A DNA stretch of 64,000 nt from Winogradskyella sp. PG-2 (lineage in GTDB: Bacteria > Bacteroidota > Bacteroidia > Flavobacteriales > Flavobacteriaceae), in NCBI RefSeq assembly GCF_000828715.1, contig NZ_AP014583.1, forward strand, positions 2,850,001 through 2,914,000, read 5' to 3'. The notes under the pieces were generated by a model. The model ran no database searches. It had not been told where the DNA came from and was given only the letters and a program-made list of their open reading frames with translations. Made by a program: the position numbers and the translations under genes. Below, piece after piece: positions 3,021-8,530 of the stretch. The first letter of the stretch is position 1, and the number at the start of each line of letters is the position of its first letter.

Positions 3021-3383
3021 ATGGTAGGATGGTTCGAAATTCCGGTAAGCGATATGGATCGTGCAAAACAATTTTATGAAACTGTTTTTAAAGTTGAAAT
3101 TAAAGTTTAAGATTTTGGAGGCACTTTAATGGGATGGCTTCCTAATAATAAAGGAGTTTAAGGAGCAACAGGAAGTTTAGTAAAACAAGAATCTTACGTT
3201 CTTAGTGAAGAAGGTACTTTAGTGTATTTTATGTCTAATGATGTTCAAGTTGAATTAGATCGAGTTGTTGATGCTGGAGGAAAAATTTATCAAGAAAAAA
3301 CTAAAATTTCAGAAGAACATGGTTGTATGGGAGTATTTATAGATTCTGAAGGAAATAGAGTAGCCCTACATTCTAATGCTTAA
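3021..3383 (+). pseudogene. VOC-family (glyoxalase-like) protein, two in-frame TAA stops
   Basis: Reading one frame from ATG 3021 to TAA 3381-3383 gives 120 codons of recognisable VOC fold: an opening VGWFEIPVSDMDRAKQFYE, then TLMGWLPNN, GTLVYFMSNDV, DRVVDAGGKIYQEKT and the closing MGVFIDSEGNRVALHSN. TAA stops interrupt it at codon 30 (3108-3110) and codon 47 (3159-3161). No frameshift is present and everything else is intact, so the damage looks recent. Both could be single C-to-T changes from CAA, though the ancestral codons are inferred. VOC proteins of this kind are usually small metal-dependent enzymes or resistance proteins of unknown substrate. Confidence 0.82.
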
Positions 3384-6406: not shown

Positions 6407-6420
6407 TTTTGGTTGCGCTT

Positions 6421-6657
6421 AACGCCCACTGTGTATGGCGTAGTGAGGCGCGCCTCACGGAAAGCCATTGTTGCGCCTGATTAGCTATACACGCTGTTGT
6501 GTGTAGTATCGTTCGGAGTTCTCGTAGACTCGACTAAATATACATAAAATTAGCGAGGTGCGACAAACAGTGGGCGTTGGTATGTAATTAGTAGAAGGGC
6601 AGCGTTTGGAAAACGCGATTCTACGTGCCGCAGGCAATTACATACCAACGTTTAGTG
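6421..6657. repeat. Copy A of a ~237-bp near-identical structured repeat
   Basis: This stretch matches 8247-8482 with about three substitutions and one single-base indel. It is visibly GC-richer than its surroundings. It contains a perfect 16-bp palindrome GTGAGGCGCGCCTCAC (6443-6458), an 11-bp inverted repeat AACGCCCACTG/CAGTGGGCGTT (6421-6431, 6568-6578), and a 15-bp inverted repeat CGTTGGTATGTAATT/AATTACATACCAACG (6575-6589, 6636-6650). The last one encloses a smaller nested hairpin (GTAGAA...TTCTAC). No coding frame is evident. It lies beside the helicase promoter. Confidence 0.9.
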
Positions 6658-6776
6658 TATGGTTAGTTGCTTTGGGATTAAAGATAGCAAAAGGGGACGA
6701 GCTTGAGGTAAATCCGCTGGATTTTCCGATTGGCACATAGACACTCTAGCAATTAATTATACACGGTGTTAGCAAC
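6647..6776. repeat. Imperfect hairpin, recombination-site-like (attC-like outline)
   Basis: Bounded by AAC (6647-6649) and GTT (6768-6770), with complementary GTGTAT (6655-6660) and ATACAC (6759-6764) inside and a loop of about 100 bases between. The right end reads GTTAGCAAC and abuts the stop codon of the gene at 6782-7252. Its inverse, GTTGCTAAC, starts repeat copy B at 8241-8249. This AAC...GTT plus imperfect-stem outline recalls integron attC sites. No integrase is in the window and the assignment is tentative. Confidence 0.4.
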
Positions 6777-6781
6777 TGCCT

Positions 6782-7252
6782 TTATAGCACTAACATTATA
6801 AAATTACCTAACAATGAAACTTGAAGTACAAAAATCAAAATGCTAATTTCCTTTTTGTATTTGTATGCTATTAATATCGTAATAATTACTATTAGCGGTA
6901 ATACTAATCCTGATACTATTCTAAAAGAATAGATCGTACTTTTTCCTGATGAGACTAATTTATGTCTATTTATTTTTTTAAATATTAAAGACTCAGAATA
7001 TTCGATTTGTTTATTCTCAACTGATTTTGCAAAATCTTCTGAAACTGAAAACTGATGTTTAGATGTGATTACTTTGTAAGATATATGTGAGTTTCCACCT
7101 GCATTATAATATGTTTCTCTATTCCTTTCTACTTTGATTACGTCCTCTGTAAACACCTTGCCTGAGAAAGTAAAATCTATCAATATAACTAATGCTAATA
7201 TTATTGTTATTCCATATAGCAAAAGCTGTATTTTGTTCGTTTCTTTAGTCAT
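6782..7252 (-). CDS. Small membrane protein of unknown function
   Basis: A 156-residue protein with a hydrophobic helix near residues 10-30, a hydrophilic 75-residue region (RNRETYYNAGGNSHISYKV...) that probably faces the periplasm, then two hydrophobic helices near 110-132 and 136-155. I recognise no family. Its start overlaps the end of the hydrolase gene by 8 bases, so the two are co-translated, and its stop lies directly against the repeat-associated hairpin. It therefore travels with the hydrolase as a compact two-gene unit. Confidence 0.6.
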   Translation of the reverse strand: MTKETNKIQLLLYGITIILALVILIDFTFSGKVFTEDVIKVERNRETYYNAGGNSHISYKVITSKHQFSVSEDFAKSVENKQIEYSESLIFKKINRHKLVSSGKSTIYSFRIVSGLVLPLIVIITILIAYKYKKEISILIFVLQVSLLGNFIMLVL

Positions 7253-8225
7253 TTTTAATGTTTAATAAGAATTCAAAAACTTGTAAATAAGCATTTTTTT
7301 TTGCGTTTAAATCTCCTTCAGCGGTACCTCCAAATTCATATTCGTAGTTCTTTCCATTAATATTGATTTTTCCGATTCTTAAATCAGACAATTGCTTTGG
7401 ATTTGTAGATATGGAATGTCCAGCGTTCTGATATTTAATACTTTTAAAATTATATTTAAAATTGTTGTTGGTCAATCTATTTTCTATCATATCGGCCATT
7501 TTTGCTGATGGCCAAACTTTATCATCTACTCCAGAGAAGAGTAAAATAGGACCTTTGATTAACTCTACTTTAATATGGCTCTTATGGGTTGAATCAATCT
7601 TAGATAAACCATTTTCCCAATAGTCCAACATTCTTATTTTCTCTGTATCGTTTCCAGAAATTTTAGTCATAGGTAAATACGGAATATCAATTCCGTTATA
7701 TTTCCAACTTGCTTTTAATTCATTAGAATTATAAGGTAAAACAGTATTTGACCAAGAAACAGAACTTGGTGTGTAAGCAATAACTCCGCTTACCATATCT
7801 GGAAATATTGAAGCAATTATTAAAGCTAATTCTGCATTTCTTGATGCTCCCATTACAATAATCTTTTTTGGGTCAACAGATTTTTGTTTTCTTATCCAAT
7901 TTAATGCACTTTCAAAGTATTCTAAATCAATTTCCTCTGGTAAATTCGGCAAACCTTCTTTTCCTATGTAAGGCAATGATATTCCAACCATTTCTTTATT
8001 TGCGATTTCTTGAGACCAATAATCTCCCCATTGTCCGCCACCAATAAGAACAACTGCTGTTTTATTTTCAATATTTTCTTTTGCAAAAAAATTCACTTGA
8101 AAACCGTTTTCGTTTATTGGTTTAGGTTTTATTCCATTAAAAAGAATGCTGTCTATAACTAAATATGAGATAATAATTATAGCGATAACTCCAATAGAAA
8201 TAATTAACTTCCTGTTTATTCTCAT
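7245..8225 (-). CDS. Membrane-anchored alpha/beta hydrolase, BAAT/acyl-CoA thioesterase C-domain type
   Basis: A 326-residue protein if begun at ATG 8225 (MRINRKLIISIGV). The frame stays open to 8294, but those extra 23 codons run into repeat B and are rejected. An N-terminal hydrophobic segment (about 9-27) anchors the enzyme outside the cytoplasm. The nucleophile elbow is MGASRNAEL, i.e. GxSxN where the family normally has GxSxG. The acid is in FSGVDDKVWPS and the His in NAGHSIS. BAAT-type domains cleave or transfer acyl groups; the substrate is unknown. It is translationally coupled to the small membrane protein downstream. Confidence 0.75.
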   Translation of the reverse strand: MRINRKLIISIGVIAIIIISYLVIDSILFNGIKPKPINENGFQVNFFAKENIENKTAVVLIGGGQWGDYWSQEIANKEMVGISLPYIGKEGLPNLPEEIDLEYFESALNWIRKQKSVDPKKIIVMGASRNAELALIIASIFPDMVSGVIAYTPSSVSWSNTVLPYNSNELKASWKYNGIDIPYLPMTKISGNDTEKIRMLDYWENGLSKIDSTHKSHIKVELIKGPILLFSGVDDKVWPSAKMADMIENRLTNNNFKYNFKSIKYQNAGHSISTNPKQLSDLRIGKININGKNYEYEFGGTAEGDLNAKKNAYLQVFEFLLNIKND

Positions 8226-8246
8226 AGTTGGTCTTAGGTTGTTGCT

Positions 8247-8482
8247 AACGCCCACTGTGTATGGCGTAGTGAGGCGCGCCTCACGGAAAGCCATTGTTGC
8301 GCCTGATTAGCTATACACGCTGTTGTGTGTAGTATCGTTCGGAGTTCTCGTAGACTCGACTAAATATACATAAAATTGGCGAGGTGCGACAAACAGTGGG
8401 CGTTGGTATGTAATTAGTAGAAGGGCAGCGTTTGGAAAACGCGATTCTACGTGCCGTAGGCAATTATATACCAACTTTAGTG
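8247..8482. repeat. Copy B of the ~237-bp near-identical structured repeat
   Basis: Direct-orientation partner of 6421-6657. The 16-bp palindrome and the 11-bp inverted repeat are kept intact; one arm of the 15-bp inverted repeat has a base change and loses a terminal G. It is preceded by GTTGCTAAC (8241-8249), the inverse of GTTAGCAAC at 6768-6776. The two copies frame the hydrolase/membrane protein pair. Confidence 0.9.
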
Positions 8483-8530
8483 ATATGAGGCCGTTTTAAT
8501 GCCTTATATCAGACGTTAAGCGAAGTTAAC
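8473..8530. repeat. Imperfect hairpin, recombination-site-like, beside repeat B
   Basis: TGATATGAGG (8481-8490) pairs with CCTTATATCA (8502-8511) with one G-T pair; AAC (8473-8475) lies on one side and GTTAAGCGAAGTTAAC (8515-8530) on the other. The tail matches 768-781 closely. It lies just 3' of the esterase gene (8578-9405). Confidence 0.45.

Follow-up and report, generated by a model that had tools for sequence, protein, structure and literature searches.

Beside deaD, at a short attC-like site, a two-gene cassette very probably lies between two ORF-less cassettes that share its orientation, the three belonging to an integron-like system. The window (the whole stretch analysed, 64,000 nt) covers positions 2850001–2914000 of a Winogradskyella genome consisting of one contig of 3,811,479 bp. 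Integrons are the best-known bacterial gene-collecting device, and the putative system described here would, judging from sequence, work like one, although by the IntI test (the TIGR02249 cut-off and the IntI insert) its integrases do not qualify it as a member.

The repeat-framed genes beside deaD

Direct repeat copies at 6421–6657 and 8247–8482 are 96% identical without gaps over 245 nt and 98.3% identical when aligned across 238 nt. Their GC content climbs to 0.45–0.48 in 240-nt windows, vs. ~0.25–0.39 in most nearby windows; parts of deaD come to 0.43–0.44. The GC-richer pair reported in an earlier note is real, but the unit is 229 nt long and bounded by AAC (GTT on the cassette strand), and not 237 bp as the note had it; the two ORF-less cassettes occupy 6421–6649 and 8247–8475 on the minus strand. 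Direct reading of the first unit reveals an attC-like site within it (6421–6498, minus strand; AAC, GTGTAT/ATACAC arms, GTT), which has the layout of the variable sites described below and was picked up by our site pattern in one variant copy. A hairpin formed by GTTGGTATGTAATT and AATTACATACCAAC marks the cassette start (6576–6649, minus strand), its arms being compensated in the sister species G033. Facing the next cassette is a promoter-like stretch (6534–6568, minus strand; TTTG plus TATATTTAG), which we matched by eye to the Bacteroidota promoter consensus and regard as a candidate only. The TATATTTAG stretch is conserved, and our guess is that the repeat may provide the following gene with a promoter.

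As the earlier note stated, two minus-strand genes overlapping by 8 nt (7245–7252) lie between the copies. The first encodes an alpha/beta hydrolase of 326 aa (7245–8225; BAAT_C, E 4.2e-27), whose start is likely 8225 rather than the longest-ORF start at 8294, inside the repeat. The second encodes a 156-aa protein (6782–7252) that appears by eye, from its hydrophobic stretches, to be a membrane protein and has no Pfam match at E 0.1. A further attC-like site, that of the gene cassette, was missed by the note; it lies at 6647–6770 on the minus strand (72 bits with covariance model R1, whose 58 rows include this site). Its R'' side (GTTAGCAAC, 6768–6776) and the R' side at the other end of the cassette (GTTGCTAAC, 8241–8249), both on the minus strand, are complementary at 9/9 positions.

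Between an esterase gene and deaD lies another, short attC-like site (8473–8517, minus strand), which folds somewhat better than its shuffled versions (z –2.2; 9/200 shuffles equally good); the window's own attC-like site, by energy alone, does no better than shuffles (z 0.39). The outer R-box half CGCTTAAC on the deaD side (6416–6423, minus strand) is complementary to GTTAAGCG at 8515–8522, and the two outer ends enclose the short site. We read 8473–8517 as the putative landing site of the window block. The esterase gene was also considered as the cassette of the short site and rejected, no matching R' being visible upstream by eye. At gathering thresholds, the only RNA families found were tRNAs, both in the window and across 120 kb that took in array and flanking DNA.

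The best 29 of 59 relatives' deaD loci with a match were compared, each with about 1.5 kb of flank. The hydrolase and 156-aa genes were found in none of the 29, in keeping with the earlier note's expectation of relatives without the insert, and rdgB is near deaD in 14 of them. G079 carries the esterase gene and, at the same place by deaD, another gene whose ends are nearly complementary, and in G035 an attC-like stretch precedes deaD. The motif GTTAAGCGAAGTT occurs four times in our genome, three times beside the repeat; each of its three further loci adjoins a short attC-like site, and the repeat is present at two of the three. These loci, and the 98%-identical repeats framing the block, would also suit its arrival by homologous recombination between repeat copies instead of site-specific capture, but such recombination alone leaves the first repeat at the site unexplained, and the different gene in G079 has its nearly complementary ends with no repeat in the stretch read. 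We therefore consider arrival by homologous recombination rather unlikely and prefer capture of cassettes at the short site.

Probable cassette arrays across the genome

The fetched regions contain at least 59 matches to the repeat of ≥62 nt; the genome total may be higher, a whole-genome search having scored 40 of 71 first-look candidates. Fifty-six are ≥219 bp and three are fragments, and all match on the plus strand: two in direct tandem at 203.7–204.2 kb, 29 at 2338–2418 kb, 19 at 2521–2580 kb, two in the window and seven at 3266–3280 kb. Three 23-nt matches on the minus strand reflect the palindrome within the repeat and were left out of the counts. A perfect tandem of two copies has a single AAC in common, and a diverged solitary repeat with the same kind of short site lies on the opposite strand at 3246 kb (L296). 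The genes change from copy to copy, as the earlier note had anticipated in proposing a variable cargo flanked by an ORF-less cassette.

Nearly every long repeat copy is followed by a different palindromic site, with the layout AAC, 4–7 nt, an arm (e.g. GTGTAT, GGCTAT or GTATAT), a central part that varies, the matching arm, ~3 nt and GTT. The exceptions are two copies (2354082 and 2357345) and one fragment, which run into other sequence instead. The same palindromic sites also occur between genes without any repeat. A first, loose hairpin scan of a 300-kb region gave near-equal numbers on the two strands (163 vs. 120), and the tightened site pattern gave 85 sites on the plus and 10 on the minus strand of the 300 kb.

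Covariance model R1 was built from 58 sites, 57 of them taken from three arrays on the chromosome (2342–2441, 2521–2580 and 3265–3281 kb; about 100, 58 and 15 kb long). With 150 of 5811 candidates scored, R1 recognised at least 105 sites in this genome with E ≤ 0.01. The three arrays hold 90 of these, every one on the minus strand; the 90 include most of the sites from which the model was built. Two more small clusters of R1 sites are located at 1074–1078 kb (opposite strand) and 1979–1984 kb.

In the site stems, 11/16 pairs are changed on both sides, and covariation is 0.378, compared with 0.092 after shuffling. Because the regular expression demanded AAC/GTT and complementary 6-base arms, there is a bias in nine of these pairs and in the folding energies. 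The inner pairs, which the pattern does not require, show changes on both sides in 6/7 cases. When folded as DNA, the strand opposite the cassette strand is the more stable in 55/58 sites (mean z –3.0 vs. –2.5, the pattern favouring folding on both strands), a preference also reported for attC sites (PMC6393395). The AAC/GTT core, unequal spacers and covarying imperfect hairpin are the features expected of attC in these sites, which were picked partly by arm complementarity. The R-box consensus RYYYAAC/GTTRRRY fits one side in 1/68 regex sites and the other side in 0.

If the units are cassettes, the start of each should complement its own R'' and not that of its neighbour. Exact AAC and GTT were present in 86 of 94 sites (8 dropped), with 82 pairs lying within 6 kb. 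In 69/82 pairs the ends are complementary at ≥6 of 7 positions, and 13/82 fail; with partners shuffled (1000 trials), 3.6 cassettes matched on average and 10 at most. The complementarity often extends to 9–10 nt, as it does over 9/9 positions in the window cassette. The rule holds at the same threshold for 25/32 cassettes ending at the repeat and for 44/50 ending at an attC-like site. In the repeat itself, the start GTTGGTATG and the R'' of the inner attC-like site (reverse complement GTTGTGTGTAG) agree in this genome in GTTG only, so the repeat may be a fusion of two units. In G033, all four copies begin GAT and have ATC in their own R'', and the next cassettes begin GTT.

These ends bear on the idea that the 229-bp unit is a MITE-like, non-autonomous element that targets attC-like sites, with the genes as passengers between two copies. 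The very high identity of the long copies (96–100% to the query) and the strong secondary structure of the ORF-less unit (z –4.6) are what such an element might show. The long copies in the fetched regions, however, all have a single orientation and AAC at both edges, identical 5-bp flanks (the one length compared) surround 0/53 units, the repeat ends follow the cassette rule in G033, and the ends of a gene cassette match each other whether or not a repeat adjoins it. We consider a MITE-like origin improbable. The earlier note's composite of two MITE-like elements fares no better, the AAC/GTT ends being common to the adjacent attC-like sites; repeat ends and common orientation do not support a MITE or a composite transposon. 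As a cassette, the repeat has hairpins partly kept by compensating changes, 8/73 predicted pairs being altered on both sides among nine sequences compared across species. Its suspected role as a carrier needs qualifying: it belongs to the carrier system as one amplified cassette, and many gene cassettes have no adjoining repeat. The note's proposal of a family of accessory-gene carriers in Flavobacteriia was right, the carriers being the attC-like sites of an integron-like array.

Open reading frames of ≥100 aa in two arrays run in one direction in 134/141 cases. When 61 cassettes were compared with the other fetched genomes, three, all of them gene cassettes, matched over 70% of their length, at 72–82% identity. 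Family scans covered 83 of the 144 proteins of the 2342–2441 kb array; DUF6090 was found in 10/83, a ParE-type toxin match in two, and a transposase-type integrase core domain in two. One gene cassette occurs twice in the array (2409281 and 2412919 of the chromosome; 97.6% identity). Just before this largest array are a tRNA gene (L032:5153–5225) and then a split tyrosine recombinase (L055; 2335–2337 kb), perhaps the edge of a genomic island.

Integrases beside the arrays and their relatives

The profile search found five PF00589 matches (tyrosine recombinases) in this genome, none of them in the window, which agrees with the earlier note that mobilisation would have to act in trans. Two adjoin arrays. 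A 355-aa integrase begins at 3281.75 kb, ~1 kb beyond the last R1 site of the 3265–3281 kb array and divergent from it, and a 375-aa integrase lies at 2442.4 kb, ~1.4 kb past the array end at 2441.0 kb, pointing into the array. None of the five adjoins the 2521–2580 kb array. The 375-aa protein represents a second, co-directional integrase type, also observed at L113, L115, L123, L128, L130 and L134.

The two array integrases score 184.6 and 199.5 bits with the IntI model TIGR02249, below its cut-off of 265. With the XerA-type model NF040815 (cut-off 220), the 375-aa integrase passes (242.8) and the 355-aa integrase does not (199.2). Aligned to IntI4, the array integrases have no insert where the two halves of the core meet. 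The spacing from KxR to HxLRH is 58–61 residues in 31/32 array-type integrases (one unreadable by the pattern), 64–65 in the two Xer proteins of this genome, and 100 in 23/30 IntI (five unreadable; two values of 261 are pattern failures). By sequence, array-type integrases thus do without a stretch of about 40 residues found in IntI, the one holding the I2 helix. They also have ~80 aa more in the N-terminal region than Xer-type proteins, and the 355-aa type shares with IntI the ending SPLD. PMC7790495 describes the I2 helix as necessary for cassette capture and as present in no other protein.

In a tree of 60 rows, in which rows were called array-type by similarity, IntI forms one group (100/99) and the other integrases stand apart (84/69); the root is unsure because the sole outgroup is two long-branched Xer proteins. 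Four integrase rows were left out (one duplicate, two short and one fused). The array integrases, lacking the IntI insert, fall outside IntI.

R1 matches were found in all 60 genomes sampled from the genus. In the phylum sample, for which few candidates were scored in each genome, at least 80 of 296 genomes had one. An R1 match lies within about 1.5 kb of the integrase at 16/30 loci of the relatives search, our own locus included. The array-type integrase is within ~2.5 kb of the array 5' end in 4/5 near-complete relatives (G005, G011, G026 and G028), and in the fifth, G034, 7.5 kb separate the integrase from the nearest of the listed sites. Contig C2 of G005 carries attC-like sites from about 2 to 38 kb, and is either an extrachromosomal array or an assembly piece. 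Among named genomes, the best 80 of 305 integrase-related stretches, from Winogradskyella, Hyunsoonleella, Maribacter, Arenibacter and others, included 32 R1-positive loci (30/54 among loci with >1.5 kb upstream). Within these 80, 75/78 R1 matches are upstream of the integrase on the opposite strand, and the other three are downstream on the same strand (L269, L283 and L284). By eye, most of 23 aligned integrases are preceded, at the last junction, by a stretch resembling AACAC(A/T)TATATATGTG. In most of these 23 loci (L049, L214–L264), an inverted repeat, GTATATCA...TGATATAC, is conserved around the likely integrase promoter and is possibly an operator.

True IntI is common elsewhere in the phylum, exceeding the TIGR02249 cut-off in 84/296 sampled genomes (up to seven candidates scored each), and the arrays might on that account be ordinary integron remnants (CALIN) of a lost or trans-acting IntI, to which the adjoining XerA/IntI-like recombinases are unrelated. 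This we judge to have little chance of being right: none of the 30 own-family genomes listed in the phylum sample, nor this genome, exceeds the IntI cut-off, and in different genera R1 sites adjoin the I2-less integrases with the same divergent arrangement. The proximity of integrase and array 5' end in four of the five near-complete relatives, the exception being the gap in G034, also argues against remnants. R1, which was trained on this genome, found no site beside 30 IntI loci, a weak control because the model misses some kinds of attC.

Proposed mechanism and known systems

In the proposed mechanism, an attC-like site would fold into a single-strand hairpin, and a tyrosine recombinase encoded at an array 5' end (3281.75 kb or 2442.4 kb) would cut it at G^TT. 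The circular cassette, presumably excised in this way, would join at a platform site, for which the recurring stretch before the integrases is a candidate, or at the site of another cassette. Rarely, it would join a stray attC-like site, as upstream of deaD. The ORF-less repeat cassette would have multiplied recently.

We lean, by a modest degree, towards a second kind of integron in the Bacteroidota: arrays of folded sites served by a clade of tyrosine recombinases from which the I2 helix was absent from the start or has been lost, and I2 would then be unneeded for capture. The N-terminal extension or another feature would replace I2, and IntI may descend from an I2-less ancestor to which this clade is close. 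Should the arrays be functional, the rule on I2 would no longer hold, a large pool of accessory genes in marine bacteria would become readable, and ideas on how IntI arose could be tested directly. In the open-licence literature searched, we found no description of these arrays or of I2-less cassette integrases, and the system seems to have been overlooked so far. For Bacteroidetes proper, the IntegronFinder 2.0 paper gives one complete integron, in Salinibacter ruber M1 (PMC9024848), in contrast to the true IntI detected in the phylum genomes sampled here. In Winogradskyella genomes the largest arrays comprise a hundred sites or more, and the integrases are without the insert.

Set against the sedentary chromosomal integron, such as the Vibrio cholerae superintegron, the system is alike in its one-way arrays of short cassettes, some of them ORF-less, its hairpin sites with AAC/GTT cores and unequal spacers, the complementarity of each cassette's own ends, the better-folding bottom strand and an integrase beside the 5' end. 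It differs in that the Winogradskyella integrase is without the IntI insert and does not reach the IntI cut-off, the R-box does not conform to GTTRRRY (1/68 sites does), end complementarity often reaches 9–10 nt, and the second integrase is co-directional with its array. Like the attC clusters without integron integrase that IntegronFinder terms CALIN, arrays such as that at 2521–2580 kb lie away from any recognised IntI, but the other arrays here have an integrase, though one below the IntI model cut-off. With XerA/XerC/XerD-type tyrosine recombinases, the array integrases have in common a short core spacing (58–61 vs. 64–65 residues, compared with 100 in IntI), and they are set apart from them by ~80 additional N-terminal residues, by their linkage to arrays and, in the 355-aa type, by the IntI-like SPLD ending.
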